Shown one piece after another: positions 7,289 to 64,000 of a stretch of DNA of 64,000 bases. The notes under the pieces are model-generated. The model was not told where the DNA came from. It made no database searches and worked only from the letters and a program-made list of their open reading frames with translations. The DNA is from Clostridia bacterium. Its GTDB lineage: Bacteria; Bacillota; Clostridia; Oscillospirales; Acutalibacteraceae. Both the position numbers and the translations under genes were made by a program. How positions within the stretch are numbered: position 1 is the first letter of the stretch; each line of letters opens with the position of its first letter. The stretch lies in assembly GCA_017513245.1 (NCBI GenBank), contig JAFXGK010000018.1, positions 1 through 64,000 of the forward strand, given 5' to 3'.

Positions 7289-10200
7289 TTACTGTGCATT
7301 AGCTGCAAGAACGAATGCCCAAACCTCGTCGATATTGCAGTTCCAAAGTGCCTTACCATCGATAGGGGTGATCATTTCGGCTGCAAGAGCGGCGTGGTCA
7401 CCCTCGATGAGAGCCTTAGCGGTAAGACGCTTCATCTGAGTGAGCGAGCGGCTGTAAACACCGTTGTCAATTGCCTTGGAAGCATCGGTGTTCTGGGTGC
7501 CGAGTACGATATCTAAGGAGTTACCATAGTTATCGGAGATGGAAATCTCAGTACGTGCAAGAACACGTGCGGTGGGATTCATAGCATCGAAGCCTTCATA
7601 GGTTGTGTAGAAGTTACCCTTCTTCATAGCCTTGCCGTCTTCGCCGAGAACAAGGTGGTTGCTTTCTTCGTCAGCGCGCATAGAAGCGAAACCTGCCTCA
7701 TCAATCTCGAAGTCGAAGTCGTATGCACGCTCCGGATACTTGGTGTCGATGAAGTACTTAGCAATCATATGAGTGGTTACGCAGTTCATCGAAACGTATG
7801 CCGGGAGGTCAACGCTGGTTACGTAGTAAACAGTGCTGCCGTCGGTATCAAGCAGAGCGCCCTCCATCTTGGGAGCGAGGTCAGCCTGATTGATGATGCT
7901 GAAGCTATCGATTGCGAATTCGCCGCCGTTGCGGAGACCAACGTTAATATAAGCGGTGGTATCAGCGGTAAGAGCGGTTGCATCGATTACCCAGTAAAGG
8001 TCAACGTAGCTGTCTTCAACCTCGTTCCAGTTCCAGTAGAGAGAACCGTCGGTGCTGAAGGAGGAGAGTACGGTGCCGTAGCTGTTGGTACCGGTTACCT
8101 TATAGGTAAGACCTTCGGGAGCTCCTGTCCAAGAAGCAGCGGCACTGTCGATACGTGCATCAAAGCGAGAAGAGGTTGCAAGAGCCTCATCGTTAACGGT
8201 ATCGGGGAGAGAAAGAACACGGAACTTAGCGTGTGCAAGATACTTGTTGCCTGTAGCAAGGTCAACGGGGAATGCAACGTCTACGTGTCCACCATCGGGG
8301 TTAGCAGTTACCTTAAGGAAGTTGCTGCCCATAGTGTCGTCGAAGCCCTTAAGAGCCTTATCAGCCTCAGCGTAGCCTGCAAATTCAGCAGAAGCGCCGC
8401 TGTTTAAATCAACGAGCTGCTCGGGAACTACAGAAGTGTCCTCGAAGCCGCCGTTTTCGCCTTCTGTTACGTCAAGCTTATCAAGCTCGAAGTTAGCGGT
8501 AAGCTCAGCGCTTTCGAAGGTAGAATAGGGGTTAGCGGTGGAAACAACCTGACCCTCTGCATCGGTCCAACCTGTGAACTTGTAGCCGGGTTCTCTAACG
8601 GTTGCGGTGTAGGTCATCGGGATAACTGCGGTAGAAGCAGCAGGGCCGATGTTACCGGTACCAATGTTGCCGTCAGTGTAGTGAACAGCGCCTTCGTTTA
8701 CAACCTCGGAAACAACGATGTTATCGATGTCGAGAGCGAAAGTACCTGCGTTATTGTTACCAAAGGTCATACCGAACAGAGCCTCATCGCCGAGGTCGGT
8801 AGTGCCATCCTGGAGGGTCCAGGTGGTGGTGTCGATAACTATAGTTCTGTGAACCCAATCGGTGGGTGCGTTCTGGTATGCACCTGCGAACGAGGTGGAG
8901 CCTTCGCGCGGATAGTCGTCGGTACCGCCGGAGGGCAGGGGATTGAAGTCGCCAACGTAGGTATTGCTGGTACCGCTGTTAACGGAATAGCTGTCTGCGA
9001 AAGCAATACGGTTCCACTCATATGTGCGGTTGCCGAATGTGCCGCTCTTGTTGTAAACGAACATATTACGATAGCTGGAGCCCTCGGAAGAGAGGTAGTT
9101 GCCTTCTGCATCCATCGGAACTCTGTGATCGTAGGAAATTACGTATTTCTTGCCCTTTTCGAGCTCGAACTGCCACTGGAATGCATAGAATGCGTTGCTT
9201 CCGGTGATAGTAGAAACCATCTGGAGATAGTTGTTGCCGTTCTCTTCAGTCTTAACGGTTGCGCTGTAAGCAGCGTTCTGAACGAAAACGTCGTGATCGC
9301 CGAAGTCGAAGCCACCGTCAACAATCTTGTTGTACTCGGTGAAGGAAGCATACATGCCTGCGGTTGCGGCGTAGGTAGCATCGGTGGAAACGAGAGCATC
9401 GTTTATATCATACCAACCGTTGAACTTGTTGCCGTAGTAAGCCTTTGCAGTGTAAGTGCCGTCCTGATTCTTAACGATGATACCACCGTCGGTTGCATAG
9501 GGAGCAACAGCGAACTTAGCGGTATAGGTGCCTTCAGCGTAGAAGGTCTCGGTTGCGTTAGTAGAAACGAGATTGCCCTGTGCATCGTACCAACCAACGA
9601 ACTCAGAACCGCTGTTAGCGGTTGCGGTGTAGGTGGTAACTGCTACCTGCGAGTAAGCGGTAGTGCCGTCAACTGCGGTAGAAACGGAGCCAACCTTAGC
9701 GTTGCCGTTTGCAACGTAGCAAACAGCATCGGGAGTGTAGGGCATTGCAGCTGCAACATTACCGTCGCCGCTTGCAACAGCGCTTATAGCGGTGTTAGCA
9801 GTAGCGCCTGCCTCGGTGATGCTGATGTTATCGAAGTAATAGGTGTTAGTTTGAGAGTTAGCAATACCCATGAGGAAGAACATCTCTGCGGTGTCCTCAC
9901 CGTCTGCGAAGATGGAAGCATCCTCAGTAGTCTCGAAGGTGCACCAGTAGTCAACCCACTTGTTAGCGCCTGCGTTAACGGAAGCATGAGTCTGGTCACG
10001 CATCATCTGGTAGGTGCTGCCGTAGCCGCCGAATACCGACCAGGCACCAAGGTTGGTTACACCTTCGGGCTCCCAGTGGTAGGTAACGTTGGAAACAACA
10101 GCGGAACGGGTCCAGCCGTTGGTAAAGGTCTTCTTAGCGTGGAGACCTACGTAAGCGGGCTGGTTGACGTCTACCGAGTAGTAGGAAAGGTGGAATACAT

Positions 10201-57922: not shown

Positions 57923-58714
57923 CTACTTACAGCCGCAGCCTATGCCGCCGTGGTCGGAGTCCCTTTCGGGCGGGAAGAATTCATCGGTCGGGAACTCAAT
58001 TCTGCGGAAAAGGTCGCAGGGGTGCTCGGCAGTGTCTTCACACTGTTTTTCGGGAATGCAGAAATCATAAACGGGAACAAGCATCTGAACGTTGCGAACG
58101 AGCTGTACGATGCTGAAAAGACCGAGAGTAACAAAAACGGTCGGGGTACCGCTTTCACATTCGGTGCAAATCTGACCGCCCAGACACTGACAAACGCAGG
58201 CAGGGATACAGCAGGTGCTTTCATAACAGTCGCGAACGCAGCCGATTCTGGCCGAGAGGGGAATGGGGTCAACGCTTTGAACAACACAGCGCGGCATATT
58301 TGTGGTTCGCGGCAGCTGGGCATCCATGGCGTCCTCAAGGGTTATGTTGTTTGAAAATACCTTAACGTTACCGTCGCTGCCGTAGAGAATTACCTTTTTG
58401 TTAAAGTAAGCAATACCTCTTACAGTGGTGGGAGCAGCGTGTGGCGACATAACAAGGTCTAACTCAACGAGGAAGAAGAATGTAAGGTCGCAAGAGAAAT
58501 ATCCTCGATTAAAGCTAACGGGCTCAACGTCGATATAAACGTTAAGCACCTCGGCACTCCTTGTTTTAACGCTCAGCGCACGGCCGACCAGCGCCTGATC
58601 TGCGGCAGTAAAATAACATCTTAAATCTTCAAGACAGTCACGGTCGCAGCACGAGTCATAAACTCGACCGGCATCGATACAAACAGCTTCTTTAAAACTA
58701 TTGTTGTCTGCCAT
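57923..58714 (-). CDS. Cysteine-rich conserved protein (263 aa), possibly a spore coat component
   Basis: About twenty cysteines, many paired or clustered (DSCCDRDC near residue 22; CVRDCYESTCCIPACVCQC near 165-185; terminal GIGCGCK). No signal peptide and no membrane segment. The bulk is beta-rich with the phrases EAVCIDAGRVYDSCC and GIAYFNKKVILYGSDGNVKVF. I recall near-identical N-termini in other Clostridia as hypothetical proteins. Abundant Cys without export, together with a SigK-like promoter and spoVAC next door, fits a mother-cell coat or crust protein, but that is inference. AAAGGAGG before the ATG. Confidence 0.75.
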   Translation of the reverse strand: MADNNSFKEAVCIDAGRVYDSCCDRDCLEDLRCYFTAADQALVGRALSVKTRSAEVLNVYIDVEPVSFNRGYFSCDLTFFFLVELDLVMSPHAAPTTVRGIAYFNKKVILYGSDGNVKVFSNNITLEDAMDAQLPRTTNMPRCVVQSVDPIPLSARIGCVRDCYESTCCIPACVCQCLGGQICTECESGTPTVFVTLGLFSIVQLVRNVQMLVPVYDFCIPEKQCEDTAEHPCDLFRRIEFPTDEFFPPERDSDHGGIGCGCK

Positions 58715-58783: not shown

Positions 58784-58836
58784 GAATATGAATTGAAAAG
58801 GGCAGTTTGGGCAAGATAATTGCGGAGTTGATATAT

Positions 58837-59280
58837 ATGAACATAACCCGTAATGAATATAAAGAATTATATGGTAAAGCGTCCCCCAAAAGCCCAAAGT
58901 TTCGAGATTTTTTGCTCGCGTTTTTAGTCGGCGGCGGAATATGCACCATAGGACAGTTGCTGCTTGAGCTTTATTTATATCTGGAACTTAAAACCGATAT
59001 TGCCAAGGCGCTTGTACCGATTTCGCTCATATTCTTGTCGGCGCTTTTTACCTCGCTGCATATATTCGATAAGCTTGCCAAGCACGCCGGTGCAGGCACC
59101 CTCGTTCCCATAACGGGTTTTGCCAACGCCGTTGTATCCCCCGCAATCGAATTTAAGGCCGAGGGTCGCATTTTGGGCACGGGAGCCAATATGTTCAAAA
59201 TTGCAGGTCCCGTAATCGCCTACGGCACCATATCGAGCGTGGCATACGGGGTTATTTATTGGATAACGACATTGTTTTAA
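58837..59280 (+). CDS. spoVAC: Stage V sporulation protein AC
   Basis: Membrane subunit of the SpoVA channel that moves dipicolinate into the forespore core and out again at germination; the Bacillus protein behaves as a mechanosensitive channel. Start motif EYKELYGKASPKSPKFRDFLLAFLVGGGICTIGQLLLELY, then GAGTLVPITGFANAVVSPAIEFKAEGRILGTGANMFKIAGPVIAYGT. 147 aa, three to four helices. ATG at 58837 with GCGGAG upstream; the frame is open for 30 nt before. spoVAD and spoVAE, usual partners directly downstream, are absent here. Its last 113 bp are repeated at 60336. Confidence 0.92.
   Translation: MNITRNEYKELYGKASPKSPKFRDFLLAFLVGGGICTIGQLLLELYLYLELKTDIAKALVPISLIFLSALFTSLHIFDKLAKHAGAGTLVPITGFANAVVSPAIEFKAEGRILGTGANMFKIAGPVIAYGTISSVAYGVIYWITTLF
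59158..59270 (+). repeat. Direct repeat A1: 3' end of spoVAC (resident copy)
   Basis: 113 bp inside spoVAC, repeated in the same orientation at 60336-60448 (offset 1178). I count six base differences, of which only one changes the protein (Ser to Ala). Confidence 0.9.
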
Positions 59281-59284
59281 ACAA

Positions 59285-59312
59285 AAACCGCACCAAGAAA
59301 TTGGTGCGGTTT
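59285..59312. terminator. Bidirectional terminator between spoVAC and the convergent membrane gene
   Basis: AAACCGCACCAA, GAAA, TTGGTGCGGTTT. Confidence 0.88.
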
Positions 59313-59316
59313 AAAT

Positions 59317-60249
59317 TTAACCTGCTATTGAAGATGCAATGATAACAGAAAGGAAAGCTATTACAAACGAACCCAATTCTGTTGTTCCCCAAAAATCGAT
59401 TACTTGCTTTTCCTCTGATTTGCACGATAACCGATCTTTCATATTCCACAGAATGACGCTCGAAATAATCATATGGAGAGCTAGTGGGATGATGCCGATA
59501 ATTAACCAATCGGTAAAAAAGGCACAGATAATATTTAATACTGTATAAGCAGCGTGTATGATAGTTGTAGCTTTAAAATAGTTTTTGATGATTTTTGCTT
59601 TGTGATTATTGAAAACAACATTTTTCTTTACTGCGTTATAATCTTTTTTCTTTTCCAAAAAGATACTCACACCAATACCTATTGCGCCAAGGAAAGCTAT
59701 ACCAAGACAGAGTGAGTAATCAAATATGTGATGCCACCAAGGACGGCTGACGATGGTAGTCAAAGTACCATCTGCATTTGCTTTATATACTTGAAAACTG
59801 TCGAAATAGAAGTTTCCCTCTGTAAATTGGTCATCGTATTCATTTTCCCATTCATAAGTTAAATCTAGTTTTTCCTCGTTTTCAAGTCCCAAAAAAGAAC
59901 CATTTTGAGAGTCGTAAATATAAGCATCACCATCACAAATGATAAGTTTATCATCCTGCAACTCAAAGTAGGAGTTTCGCATATACGGAGTAGCTACACA
60001 CCAAAGAAATTCACCTTTTTCGGTATATACATTTACACAGTTGGCGTCATTGTAACATACATATATTTGTTTCAAGTCTTCGTCATAAAGAACGGTTTCT
60101 ATTGTGTCGGGGAGAAAGGATTCCGACTGAATTGATGTATAGTCGTCATTACTGCGAGTACAAAACGCACGACCCAATAATCCTAAGGAAATACCACACA
60201 AAAACAGAGTAACGGAAATAGGAAACAATATTCTTGTGAATCGTCGCAT
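59317..60249 (-). CDS. Membrane protein of unknown function, accessory (310 aa)
   Basis: Start at the ATG of MRRFTRILFPISVTLFLCG, with AAAAGGGGTG upstream. One N-terminal helix (residues 5-30), an extracellular-looking domain with short repeats of the type 'IYVCYNDANCVNVYTEKGEFLW / LIICDGDAYIYDSQNGSFLG' (resembling beta-propeller or WD/NHL strands), then about four helices from residue 190 to the end. No known family recognised. The gene is clearly more AT-rich than its neighbours and lies, with its own promoter, between two copies of the spoVAC 3' end, so it is probably acquired. Confidence 0.8.
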   Translation of the reverse strand: MRRFTRILFPISVTLFLCGISLGLLGRAFCTRSNDDYTSIQSESFLPDTIETVLYDEDLKQIYVCYNDANCVNVYTEKGEFLWCVATPYMRNSYFELQDDKLIICDGDAYIYDSQNGSFLGLENEEKLDLTYEWENEYDDQFTEGNFYFDSFQVYKANADGTLTTIVSRPWWHHIFDYSLCLGIAFLGAIGIGVSIFLEKKKDYNAVKKNVVFNNHKAKIIKNYFKATTIIHAAYTVLNIICAFFTDWLIIGIIPLALHMIISSVILWNMKDRLSCKSEEKQVIDFWGTTELGSFVIAFLSVIIASSIAG

Positions 60250-60270
60250 AAGTTCACCCCTTTTGAAATT

Positions 60271-60299
60271 ATTATACCATACCACCATTTTAATGTAAA
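60271..60299 (-). promoter_or_regulatory. Promoter for the accessory membrane protein
   Basis: Minus strand: TTTACA (60299-60294), 17-nt spacer, TATAAT (60276-60271). Confidence 0.7.
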
Positions 60300-60335
60300 T
60301 ATTTCTGCAAAATGGTGTGTCCTATATTGACAGCA

Positions 60336-60455
60336 GCCGAGGGTCGCATTTTGGGCACGGGAGCCAATATGTTCAAAATCGCAGGCCCCGTAATCGCCTA
60401 CGGCACAATAGCGAGCGTAGCATACGGGGTTATTTACTGGATAACGACGTTATAA
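60336..60455 (+). pseudogene. spoVAC': Displaced 3' fragment of spoVAC (direct repeat A2)
   Basis: Forty codons in frame, from AEGRILGTGANMFKIAG to the stop, matching the last part of SpoVAC at 59158-59280 with one amino-acid change and an end one residue shorter. There is no start codon or ribosome site, so it is not expressed as a protein. The rest of 60250-60555 holds the accessory gene promoter (60271), this fragment, and a terminator (60507). Confidence 0.92.
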
Positions 60456-60506
60456 TCGTAGGGTACGGTCTTGCCTTACCGAGAAAAGCCTTTTTGCTAT
60501 TTTTAA

Positions 60507-60548
60507 ATAAAAATGCCACCTTTCATATTTAAAGAAAGGTGGCAAAAA
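60507..60548. terminator. Terminator of the 345-aa membrane protein gene
   Basis: AAAATGCCACCTTTC, 9-nt loop, GAAAGGTGGCAAAAA; it works for the minus strand gene ending at 60556. Confidence 0.9.
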
Positions 60549-60555
60549 TGCTTGA

Positions 60556-61593
60556 TTAGTCCCCGAAGGCTCGTAAAAATATTTTCATTTCGTCCTTTTC
60601 GGAAGGGGATAAGGAAGGGTCGTTTTCTATATGTTCTATTGCAGAAAAGCTATATTCTCCGTCAAAATTTTTGTTTATGTAGTCGAATTTTTGTTCGTAG
60701 GAAAGACCTGCGGAAGAACTATTTGACGACGTTGTAGAAGAATATTTTTTTCTTTCCTCTCGTTTTTTCATTTCCTCGCGTTCACGCCTATCGCGCTCAA
60801 CCTTATCAACAGAAACCCAGTAGCATTCTACTTTATCTGTAAATTTTTTCCATTTAACATAGCTATTAAAATAAGGCTGATTTATTTTGGTGAATATATA
60901 ATTCAGAACGTAAAAGGGAACATAAAACAAAACGCCCATTAATACACATAATAAAATTTTTTCTGAATACTCGTCCGACCCAAATAAAACCTTAAAAGCA
61001 GGTAAAAATCCCTTGCTTTGATTTATAGCTACGCCTTGAGAATACAACAAAAATACTATAACCAAAATGCCTGAAACAATTCCGCATACTCTGCGCCACA
61101 CAACAGGAGCGCCATCAAATGCCTGGAAATATGTTTGTGGCGATTTTTGCAAATAATCGTAAAGCTGTTTTGCTTGTTGAGCGGGGTTACCATTGATTTC
61201 AGGAGCCTTCACTTTTGTTTTGCGAGAAAGAATCAATACAATAATGCTGCAAATAACAAAAGGAACTAAAAATAAATAGAGCACCATTAAAATAATTCTT
61301 ATATACAAAATTTCAGTAAGGCTACCAAACATTCCCCAAATTGCATTCCAATATTTTAGAACAAAGGGTAGAGAATTAAAGGCCAATCCATCATTTGGAG
61401 CGGTTAATGTGCCGGCAAAACAAAAAACACCCAAAGACAAAATTAGAGTATGCAAAGTAAATAGAATGCTGCCAATGGGAAAAACGATTTTTTGCGCAAG
61501 GGTGTTGGTGTGCATCCTTTTGTTAAGGGCGTAGGCGCGATTCACAGCCTCTGGAAAATTTTCTTTAGATATTTCTTCAGTTCTTTTTATCAT
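60556..61593 (-). CDS. Membrane protein of unknown function, accessory (345 aa)
   Basis: About six hydrophobic helices between residues 35 and 250, then a soluble tail with a highly charged coiled-coil-like segment (VERDRREREEMKKREERKK), a Ser-rich linker (SSTTSSNSSSAG) and an acidic helical end (IEHIENDPSLSPSEKDEMKIF). No family recognised. AT-rich compared with core genes. AAAAGGAG lies 7 nt before the ATG, and this ribosome site is the distal end of a repeat (61601-61717) copied from the lipase 3' end, so it was once directly downstream of the lipase gene. Confidence 0.8.
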   Translation of the reverse strand: MIKRTEEISKENFPEAVNRAYALNKRMHTNTLAQKIVFPIGSILFTLHTLILSLGVFCFAGTLTAPNDGLAFNSLPFVLKYWNAIWGMFGSLTEILYIRIILMVLYLFLVPFVICSIIVLILSRKTKVKAPEINGNPAQQAKQLYDYLQKSPQTYFQAFDGAPVVWRRVCGIVSGILVIVFLLYSQGVAINQSKGFLPAFKVLFGSDEYSEKILLCVLMGVLFYVPFYVLNYIFTKINQPYFNSYVKWKKFTDKVECYWVSVDKVERDRREREEMKKREERKKYSSTTSSNSSSAGLSYEQKFDYINKNFDGEYSFSAIEHIENDPSLSPSEKDEMKIFLRAFGD

Positions 61594-61600
61594 AAAAAAT

Positions 61601-61717
61601 CTCCTTTTATCTTTAAAATCCTCTTTCTTTTAGGTCGCGAACGAGCTTTACGTAAAATTCTCTTACGTCAAAACCGTCAATATTCTGGCGGTTAAGGTCG
61701 ATTACGTCGGCATGCGA
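61601..61717 (-). repeat. Direct repeat B2: lipase 3' end plus ribosome site (second copy)
   Basis: 117 bp, identical to 62739-62855 (offset 1138) except for one base, which is synonymous. It includes the last 34 codons and stop of the lipase gene and the AAAGATAAAAGGAG leader. Confidence 0.95.
61613..61717 (-). pseudogene. Displaced 3' fragment of the lipase gene
   Basis: Codes in frame for SHADVIDLNRQNIDGFDV... to RDLKERGF and stop, the exact end of the lipase product encoded at 62751. It has no start codon and lies directly behind the stop of the PHP gene. Confidence 0.92.
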
Positions 61718-61721
61718 AATA

Positions 61722-62729
61722 TTACAGCAGATCTTTTAAGTAGTAGGGGCGAGTGGTGGCATAAGAGCCGTCCGGTGCGGTGACGGTAACATAAACAAAC
61801 GCGTCAGGATCGCCATCGACTCTGGAAAAGAAGGTGCCAAGGTTGAATTCTGCCTCTCGCAGAGGTTCGTTTTCGGCAAGGATTACTTGTGCCATCCGTC
61901 CATGGGTCTCCAGGTTGATTCGCTGCGCATCGGAGCAGGTCACTTTCAGCACGTCGCCTTCTATGCATAATTCGGTGATCTCGGGGCCGCAGGACATATA
62001 GAAATCACCATTTTCCAGCGCCTCGATCACACTGCCGTAGTTTAGATCCGATGCGCCCACCATAATCCAGGACTTACCCAGCGCTCTGGGCGAGTGCGTA
62101 TCGTCTGTACCCAGAGGGAAGATTCGGTTGCCGAGGGTCAGAAGATCTTTATAAACGCGGAAATTGTTTTCGTTATGGCCTATAAGGCAACACTCCGTAT
62201 TTCGCAGTTCCATTCCCCACAGACCTTTAAGGGGTGCATAGTTCGCATAGGTCTGACAAGACCAGGTTGGGTGGTTATACATAACGAGAAAGCCCTTCTC
62301 GTTCGCTTTCGCGATCATAGCGTTGATAGAATCCGGGTTGTATTGGATATCCATAGTGTCATACTGGATTTTGCTGTCCATTTCCTCTGAAACAGCGAAC
62401 CAGCGGGGGCACCTAGCCGGGAACCAGAGATTGTCAGGATCCTTAGCAATCAGATTCAGATGATAAGTCTGTCCACCGACTGCGCACTTGTCCGGAGCAT
62501 TGACGTTGATTTCTACACCCGTAAGCATCAAAAAATCAGGCTCGTTCATATCGGAATGGTTGACGATGGTGTTGTGGTCGGTCAAGCAAAGAATCTGGTA
62601 GCCAAGCGCTTTATATGCTTGCTTTATTTCTTCTCGGGTTAGTTTTCCGTCAGAAATGGTGCTGTGGGTGTGCAGGTTTGCTTTAAAATACCGTTCCACC
62701 TGCGGCAAAAGGTGTTTTGCTTCGCACAT
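61722..62729 (-). CDS. PHP-domain phosphoesterase-like protein, accessory (335 aa)
   Basis: PHP metal-dependent phosphoesterase fold: NLHTHSTISDG (HxH, about residue 18-28), LTDHN near 50, GVEIN near 72, MYNHP near 150 and GTDDTHS near 206 supply the usual metal ligands. Likely a phosphatase or nuclease-like hydrolase; the substrate is unknown. The C-terminal 100 residues form a beta-rich domain (CIEGDVLKVTCSDAQRI...). Base composition looks richer in G+C and codon choice differs from the AT-rich neighbours, suggesting transfer. The ribosome site (AAAAGGAG, 9 nt before ATG) is part of repeat B1. Inserted between the lipase gene and its displaced 3' copy. Confidence 0.85.
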   Translation of the reverse strand: MCEAKHLLPQVERYFKANLHTHSTISDGKLTREEIKQAYKALGYQILCLTDHNTIVNHSDMNEPDFLMLTGVEINVNAPDKCAVGGQTYHLNLIAKDPDNLWFPARCPRWFAVSEEMDSKIQYDTMDIQYNPDSINAMIAKANEKGFLVMYNHPTWSCQTYANYAPLKGLWGMELRNTECCLIGHNENNFRVYKDLLTLGNRIFPLGTDDTHSPRALGKSWIMVGASDLNYGSVIEALENGDFYMSCGPEITELCIEGDVLKVTCSDAQRINLETHGRMAQVILAENEPLREAEFNLGTFFSRVDGDPDAFVYVTVTAPDGSYATTRPYYLKDLL

Positions 62730-62738
62730 GTTGAGCAG

Positions 62739-62855
62739 CTCCTTTTATCTTTAAAATCCTCTTTCTTTCAGGTCGCGAACGAGCTTTACGTAAAATTCTC
62801 TTACGTCAAAACCGTCAATATTCTGGCGGTTAAGGTCGATTACGTCGGCATGCGA
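62739..62855 (-). repeat. Direct repeat B1: lipase 3' end plus ribosome site (resident copy)
   Basis: 117 bp at the end of the lipase gene, repeated at 61601-61717 with one mismatch. It supplies the ribosome site of the PHP gene. Confidence 0.95.
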
Positions 62856-64000
62856 TATACCGCGGCGCTTTTGCGGTTTGAGCAGCATATAGCGCTCGCC
62901 CCAATGGAACGAGGGCTCACCAACCAGGCCATCGTTATATCCGTCGAACATCTTAACGAACATGTAGGAAAGATTAAGCGGAAACTGTCCTCCGCCCGAC
63001 TGCGGCATAACCGAGCCAACGCTCTGACAGTATACGCCCTCGGGGTCAGGCACCTCTTTGTTAAAGGTCTTGCAGTAGGAATCGGTAAGGTTGTTTACCG
63101 CCGCGAAAAAGCTCGGGTTGGGCTCGCCGATTTTCTTCAGCGCAAGGTTGTACGTTCCGGCAACCTTATCCTGCACCTTTTTAGGCACGTAGTTTAGCAA
63201 ATAATCGGCAAAAAGACAGCCGTGGTGCGGTGTGTTTATGGTGGTGAGCGAGGCAACGTAAGGCGCCATTCCGAGCTTTGTAAGGGCCCATCTGCTGTCA
63301 AGTCCGCCCTTAGAGTGGGCGATTATATTAACCTTTTCGGCGCCCGTCTCACGAAGAACCTCTTCAATACGCTCTTTTAGCTGTGCGCCGCAGTTAACGA
63401 CCGAGGCGGCCGACGACTGATTACCGTAGAAAATGGTGGCGCCGTTTTTCTCGAGTTCTCCGGGGATTCGACCCCAGTAGTTAATTTTTTTGGAATCGCG
63501 AAAGAAAACTCCGTGCACCAAAAGTATAGGGTATTTCGTTTTGCAAAGCTCTTCTGCCTTGCGTTTTTCGTTCAGTTCTTCCTTTTCAAGCTCGAAGAAG
63601 CATTCCTTGGCGGTTGTACGGATGATAACGATAAGTAAAATCAGATTAACAACCGGCACCATACTGAACACAACGCCCAAAACGCGAATCTTTATACCGA
63701 GCTGTGTCGACGATAAGTAAACGCAGATAATACCGTTCCAAAAAACGATAAAGTGGACTATAAAGCAATAAAGCAAACTCCAACCGAGCGTAGCTTTAAT
63801 ATCCATGATGGTCACGAGGGCAAAGATAATATGATATCCCACCGACAGTATCACCGATAAAAACAGCGACGTCAGCAACAGCGTGCCTCGATAGCAAACC
63901 TTGAGTTTAATGTTCTTGGAACTATATGATTTCGCACCTGCCAAGAGGTTGGCTAAAAGGAATACCGGTACGAGCACTACTAAACTTAAGGGAAGCCTTC
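62751..64000 (-). CDS. Membrane-anchored lipase/esterase, alpha/beta hydrolase (5' end outside window)
   Basis: The frame is open to the window edge, so at least 8 N-terminal residues lie beyond; GTG at 63977 is only an internal codon or alternative start. About four hydrophobic helices are followed from about residue 150 by an alpha/beta hydrolase domain: ILLVHGVFF (oxyanion region), AHSKGGLDSRW (nucleophile Ser in the GxSxG-like A-H-S-K-G), a possible acid in MFDGYNDGLVG and His in GISHADVID. Resembles class-2/LipA-type triacylglycerol lipases. The substrate (lipid or wall ester) is unknown. Its 3' 105 bp are duplicated at 61613. Confidence 0.85.
   Translation of the reverse strand, partial: RLPLSLVVLVPVFLLANLLAGAKSYSSKNIKLKVCYRGTLLLTSLFLSVILSVGYHIIFALVTIMDIKATLGWSLLYCFIVHFIVFWNGIICVYLSSTQLGIKIRVLGVVFSMVPVVNLILLIVIIRTTAKECFFELEKEELNEKRKAEELCKTKYPILLVHGVFFRDSKKINYWGRIPGELEKNGATIFYGNQSSAASVVNCGAQLKERIEEVLRETGAEKVNIIAHSKGGLDSRWALTKLGMAPYVASLTTINTPHHGCLFADYLLNYVPKKVQDKVAGTYNLALKKIGEPNPSFFAAVNNLTDSYCKTFNKEVPDPEGVYCQSVGSVMPQSGGGQFPLNLSYMFVKMFDGYNDGLVGEPSFHWGERYMLLKPQKRRGISHADVIDLNRQNIDGFDVREFYVKLVRDLKERGF

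Follow-up and report, generated by a model that had tools for sequence, protein, structure and literature searches.

By what process do single genes come to lie between long direct repeats, twice within 4 kb of one contig? The question is raised by a stretch of 64,000 nucleotides (the window; positions 1 to 64,000 of contig JAFXGK010000018.1, assembly GCA_017513245.1, from a Clostridia bacterium of the Acutalibacteraceae), and it mainly concerns the gene spoVAC and the cassette inserted at its 3' end. The original prediction for this DNA described two insertions of the same design, flanked by direct repeats of 113 and 117 bp which are 3' ends of a host gene including its stop. Both repeat pairs exist; by self-comparison of the window they measure 116 bp (7 mismatches, 94%) and 121 bp (2 mismatches, 98%), and no other self-match was found in the 64 kb at E<=1e-3. 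One gene does lie within each pair, and an additional gene sits between the pairs (Table 1). The stop codon is included in the second repeat, the 3' end of a lipase-like gene, while the first, from spoVAC, ends 4 bases before it, each copy reaching a separate stop. In the best reading, the spoVAC repeat pair marks a single unit in an array of mobile gene cassettes located at the 3' end of that gene.

The arrangement exceeds chance, as homologous repeats are found at the same gene in many other genomes. Among 60 relatives, a protein search found full spoVAC genes together with short C-terminal fragments in G002, G029, G046, G056 and G058 (G numbers denote genomes of the order, 295 in the set, and L numbers the loci or contigs examined). 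For example, in the genus mate G002 a 116 bp repeat (99% identical) flanks two genes, one of AraC type and one of 609 aa; in G046 a 123 bp repeat flanks a 289 aa gene, and in G058 three spoVAC fragments follow consecutively. A profile of the last 40 residues gave more than one match in 15 of the 295 genomes. At loci with spoVAC directly before spoVAD, the gap is 11–34 bp in 17 of 18; on the window contig spoVAD starts at ~66092, past the end of the window, and the distance between the two genes is 6.8 kb. This spoVAD (L171:10093-10743) reads just 216 aa and may be truncated.

Across several families of the order, the displaced spoVAC ends begin at a single codon (the AEG codons, ~117), and the motif directly before them is GTCCTATATTGACAGCA or a variant. 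Most automatically typed fragments (98 of 116) are located directly 3' of TGTGTCCTATATTGACAGCA or a close variant, e.g. GGGTCCTAAGTTGACACAA; the remaining 18 include further motif variants, a contig edge and some false hits. In 14 of the 295 genomes, reading placed the motif ahead of a displaced end (G000, G046, G056, G058, G061, G124, G137, G175, G176, G185, G198, G212, G228 and G278). As an exact 18-mer it occurs at 8 places in the 295 genomes, all 8 before a spoVAC fragment, while the one-mismatch 18-mer stands before such a fragment at 1 of 13 places and a reversed control pattern occurs at 5. In genome_contigs (~85,000 species genomes) the 19-mer motif has 94 occurrences at 82 loci. A strict placement test, covering 80 of these loci, put it directly before a spoVAC end in 69 of 92 occurrences. 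By reading, the other 23 comprise 14 spoVAC ends (five truncated or internally deleted) and 9 unrelated places (seven outside Clostridia); L163 and L164, also assessed by reading, both have spoVAC ends after the motif, which brings the total by reading to 16. Apart from the unrelated ones, the motif-bearing records are metagenome-assembled genomes (MAGs) of Oscillospiraceae, Clostridia and similar, largely from the ruminant gut. A related second copy (like GTCCTAACGGAACACGAA) is found ~27 bases 5' of the motif in L104, L118, L120, L134, L138 and L292, as tandem arm-type sites would be.

These results contradict two earlier expectations, namely that a fixed att site is unlikely and that the length of homology is the common factor: codon 117 of spoVAC behind a conserved motif represents a fixed attachment site, and the repeat has a constant left edge and a right edge ranging from ~116 bp to 229 bp (the latter in L097). 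The proposed search for further cases succeeded as far as homologous repeats at the same gene in many genomes are concerned. In the same genome, a 398 kb sample (23%) held no second case of the claimed kind among its 8 self-matches (three inside one tandem repeat and five pairs of 57–67 bp).

To count the units, each array was taken once and a unit was defined as 150–6000 bp between consecutive copies of the spoVAC end. In total there are 88 units with a median spacing of ~0.85 kb, 64 of which hold a single open reading frame (ORF) antisense to spoVAC, and arrays contain up to five spoVAC ends within one 8 kb locus. The cassettes encode no integrase. A promoter-like head is common, with a TGTAAAT element in 65 of 82 distinct type-A ends and additionally a -10-like box in 55 of these 65. 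No conserved hairpin was found in the head; in an alignment fold, the sole pairing was that of TGTC with GACA, within the motif. The cargo is diverse: 66 representatives, including the four window genes, match 69 Pfam families, none of them in more than three members, and PADLOC assigned 23 families, one in two members and the others in one each.

Several single cassettes were recorded beside these counts. In L094, cassettes 1 and 2 are adjacent and have nearly identical heads; since these neighbours share neither genes nor spoVAC ends, heads are shuffled separately. A reverse-transcriptase gene (PF00078; L049:2962-3873, in G058) beside the last displaced spoVAC end of its array looks like retron-type cargo. 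One cassette in L100 (2671-3168) and one in L137 each contain a RAYT-like Y1 transposase gene, a label based partly on motif knowledge, and a weak PF01797 match was obtained for G185, which is on the same contig as L137.

Sequence comparison between genomes indicates that cassettes are shared while their borders are not. In 13 cassette pairs from different genomes, the bodies are 92.9–97.9% identical. The left-hand spoVAC ends of the same pairs are 69–83% alike (background mean 70, 90th percentile 77.5, exceeded by 3 of 13), and the right-hand ends 62–77% (background mean 68). Intact spoVAC genes with arrays have a common codon-level tail, ATT TAT TGG ATA AC, which is the starting point of body homology in several pairs. 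The intact gene itself can change at the core. Between the close relatives L087 and L150, spoVAC identity falls from 91.7% upstream of the core to 74.8% downstream, with a sharp break at GAGGG: here the end of an intact gene was exchanged. Identities on the two sides of the core correlate in genes without arrays (rho 0.34, 276 pairs) and scarcely in genes with them (0.09, 561 pairs); for these figures L089 and L138 were placed in the array group.

A candidate enzyme was located at the site itself in a few relatives. Searching IMG/VR with the C-terminal spoVAC profile returned six contigs, five of which (L292, L293, L294, L296 and L297) contain three tandem large serine recombinases in the same orientation as spoVAC, the last gene ending 100–325 bp 5' of the spoVAC end. 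The motif is clear in three of these five and divergent in L296 and L297. All three recombinases of L292 have the Resolvase (PF00239) and Recombinase (PF07508) domains, the domains in G137 were also checked, and the other triplets were assigned by similarity. G137 has, in order, a triplet in spoVAC orientation, its third gene cut by the contig end, a motif variant, a displaced spoVAC end and, 16 bp on, spoVAD. Moreover, sequence matching the element end of L293 precedes the first displaced end in three genomes: G058 (97.6% over 126 aligned bases), G198 (92.3% over 104) and G124 (91.3% over 127), with scores of 88–114 vs <=20.5 for shuffled sequences; the alignments take in the first bases of the spoVAC end. 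In G124, 127 residues of the recombinase remain. Serine recombinases with PF00239 are present in 8 of 10 genomes with arrays and in 5 of 8 others. The array loci yielded no tyrosine recombinase. IMG/VR labels the five triplet contigs viral; they have the appearance of pieces of serine-recombinase elements integrated at spoVAC. The sixth contig, L295, is phage-like and has a tyrosine integrase 7 kb from a full-length-type spoVAC match without the motif (293-1546 and 8632-9042).

From the above, we consider it likely that an integron-like array has formed at spoVAC and is served in trans by the serine-integrase triplet. Site-specific recombination would take place at the AEG codons (~117) between spoVAC and a circle carrying the motif and a spoVAC end. 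The incoming unit would supply its own spoVAC 3' end and stop, which would keep the gene whole, and the resident 3' end would move downstream, behind the motif. The imported end resembles the replaced one, so that spoVAC would become targetable again and the array could grow. Larger elements using the same site carry the triplet, most likely the enzyme, and such visiting elements may act in trans on the enzyme-free cassettes. The recombination chemistry, the action in trans and the circular intermediates are what we infer here. A trans-acting recombinase had been one option of the original prediction and matches this reading for the spoVAC insertion.

Several results weigh against such an account. 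Co-travel of a cassette body with either neighbouring spoVAC end was not found in the 13 pairs, and finer bins agree; a pure integrase model predicts such co-travel, so its absence counts against the model. As a cassette is not retained together with the spoVAC end beside it, homologous recombination must also act; taking place between the repeated ends and favoured at the conserved tail, it could part a cassette from that end. When the comparison is restricted to pairs with at least 72% identity upstream of the core, arrays do not make the drop downstream significantly larger (p 0.58; mean -1.1 with arrays, n=30, vs +0.2 without, n=10); L258 and L271-L274, which have no usable gene, are left out here. 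The third recombinase has homologues (E<=1e-30) in 167 of the 295 genomes, yet just 5 of the 14 array-bearing ones are among them, and most array genomes are thus without a resident copy; the 9 lacking it include G212, which is 99% complete. Conversely, 162 of 281 non-array genomes have a homologue, and presence of the family does not track arrays. Finally, the array records are MAGs.

An explanation that dispenses with a dedicated recombinase is insertion with a long target duplication or by ends-in homologous recombination. DNA carrying a short piece of spoVAC at either end would join the gene at codon 117 and close to its stop, the host 116 bp would be duplicated, and cassette bodies would later be swapped between slots. 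This explanation accounts for the finding that neither spoVAC end travels with the body and that the conserved tail of the repeat marks the start of body homology in several pairs. Similarity within loci also agrees with it, as all groups exceed the background of 68.7 (intact gene vs first fragment, mean 80.2, n=37; fragment vs fragment, mean 73.9, n=49) and the repeat copies of 9 of 86 units are 94–98% alike. However, the copies around recently shared cassettes are dissimilar, the left edge is fixed and preceded by a conserved motif, L087 and L150 differ by an exchange at the core, and a recombinase triplet stands at the site. We therefore regard duplication as unlikely, with a chance that is small but real. 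Considerably less probable is a resident Xer-like tyrosine recombinase or a Y1 (RAYT-like) transposase as the cassette mover. The Xer-like family was present in 8 of the 10 genomes tested that have arrays, but also in 8 of 8 without them; Y1 transposases were counted in 10 of 14 array-bearing vs 2 of 8 other genomes and lie in two of the cassettes, but they are missing from G000, G029, G278 and G124. Neither kind of gene is located at the site, and neither tracks the arrays. With 2–9 PF00589 matches per genome and a Xer-like family that does not track arrays, a resident tyrosine recombinase was rejected as a candidate. The best NCBIfam matches of the Xer-like proteins are XerC and XerD, all under the XerC and XerD cut-offs, and a Bacillus-type dif pattern matched in none of 12 genomes.

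Two further possibilities are very improbable. Retro-insertion of cassette transcripts by a reverse transcriptase would fit those pairs in which the common body spans roughly from ribosome-binding site to terminator, but a reverse transcriptase domain was detected in 3 of 18 genomes, is lacking in 7 of the 10 that have arrays, and does not track the arrays. An assembly artefact, of which the original prediction had warned, deserves to be named since the array records are MAGs and repeats can break or misjoin assemblies; we give it hardly any credence for the spoVAC type. Arrays occur in many separate assemblies, the same cassettes have the same edges in separate assemblies, repeat copies are mostly far from identical (60–90% alike), and spoVAD follows within 16 bp (G137) and 46 bp (L100) of a displaced end. 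Integron-like recombination served by the serine-integrase triplet, together with homologous recombination, is thus the explanation we prefer for the spoVAC insertion.

Table 1. Features at the two repeat pairs of the window (positions in the 64,000-nucleotide stretch).
Feature	Position	Strand	Remark
spoVAC, target, intact	58807..59280	+	PF03862 (SpoVAC/SpoVAEB family) E 9e-41; annotated plasmid homologues among the matches listed are labelled spoVAC
Repeat 1 copy 1, 3' end of intact spoVAC; begins at AEG core (GCCGAGGG)	59158..59273	+	
Terminator-like inverted repeat between spoVAC and convergent cargo gene	59284..59313	.	read from sequence
Cassette gene, 323 aa, without Pfam match	59317..60288	-	homologues in L140 and G056
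Promoter-like cassette head (-10-like box, TGTAAAT element)	60268..60316	-	heads common to other arrays; read from sequence
Conserved end motif GTGTCCTATATTGACAGCA, immediately 5' of displaced spoVAC end	60317..60335	+	
Displaced spoVAC 3' end, own stop	60336..60455 (repeat 1 copy 2, 60336-60451)	+	
345 aa gene, without Pfam family, between the two repeat pairs	60556..61593	-	homologue 57% beside array in L116
Second copy of lipase 3' end (121 bp repeat)	61601..61721	-	
PHP-domain gene between the 121 bp repeats	61722..62729	-	homologues in array loci L117 (72%), L051/L088 (58%)
3' end of lipase-like gene: stop and following ribosome-binding site (121 bp repeat)	62739..62859	-	
Lipase-like gene	62751..63977	-	homologue 61% inside spoVAC cassette in L160

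Does the second pair of the window have the same origin? The claim of one design for both insertions does not hold, since a fixed target and a conserved end motif are features of the first that are both lacking in the second: no conserved motif is present in front of the PHP/lipase repeat, and its host gene is not spoVAC. This repeat covers the end of the lipase-like gene through its stop codon and continues for 12 bases, which hold the next ribosome-binding site. The first insertion is an integrase-free mobile single-gene cassette, as first proposed, and a process common to both is unsupported. Of 90 self-repeats in the array loci (651 kb), 74 belong to the spoVAC type; of the 16 others, several overlap motif or head regions. 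In control loci (290 kb) there are 9 self-repeats, six of them in one locus, and neither set held a second case like the PHP/lipase repeat. All four genes of the window locus (323 aa, 345 aa, PHP and lipase) have homologues in other arrays or within ~4 kb of them. Homologues of the 323 aa gene reach 88% in the array locus L140 and 86% in G056, where the gene adjoins a displaced spoVAC end, and ~60% homologues of the lipase-like gene are found at several array loci. The PHP/lipase repeat is a separate event in the same zone of inserted DNA and is unexplained. Beside it, at 61720-61733, ATATTACAGCAG resembles ATATTGACAGCAG of the motif, on the opposite side of the repeat, possibly by chance. Upstream of spoVAC, a 263 aa gene without Pfam match (57923-58714) is strongly conserved beside spoVAC in the genus mate G002 (L047:6938-7732).

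A DNA signature is now available for finding many unknown cassette genes, and the effect on sporulation of a split spoVAC operon with a replaced 3' end becomes testable. We found no description of this spoVAC cassette system in the literature searched (open-licence PMC papers). Related arrangements are known. Composite islands of the staphylococcal cassette chromosome (SCC) and pseudo-SCC at rlmH consist of units of many kilobases. Like them, the spoVAC arrays have tandem elements at a gene 3' end, members without recombinase and, probably, serine recombinases as enzymes, whereas the units here are ~0.3–5 kb and mostly single genes. Insertion with a long target duplication was reportedly described for Helicobacter pylori by Nobusato in 2000. 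Such duplications are long, variable and tied to restriction-modification genes (PMC1643837, PMC3031569). In both cases genes lie between long direct repeats that derive from the target; the system at spoVAC differs in its single fixed target edge, its conserved motif and the variety of its cargo. Streptococcus integrative and conjugative elements, as presented in PMC4701971, have three adjacent large serine integrases, disrupt mutT, traG and hsdM and leave repeats of 2–8 bp. Three adjacent, same-orientation large serine integrases beside the integration site are common to both. Unlike in those elements, the target here is spoVAC, its 3' end is replaced, and recombinase-free small cassettes share the site.

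A further comparison is with integrons, and we lean slightly towards regarding the system as their serine-recombinase counterpart inside the spoVAC-spoVAD operon, in which each event would rewrite the SpoVAC C-terminus, the rewritten gene would still be a target, a triplet would act in trans, and the recombinase-free cassettes would bring a replacement spoVAC 3' end, many of them also a promoter and terminator of their own. Integrons, which use a tyrosine recombinase (IntI) and folded attC sites, are the standard example of collecting single genes at a fixed place. As in integrons and recombinase-free cassette clusters, cassettes of mostly one gene and with varied cargo follow one another in tandem, a recombination site recurs, and the gene-cassette arrays (88 units in all) stand at one chromosomal site. 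No counterpart of IntI was seen: a tyrosine recombinase was not found in the array loci, and the tested Xer-like proteins score far below the integron integrase cut-off. Unlike in integrons, the repeat here is a protein-coding 3' end and many cassettes have their own promoter-like head. A serine-integrase-based platform in gut Clostridia, if true, would imply more than one origin of cassette collecting.

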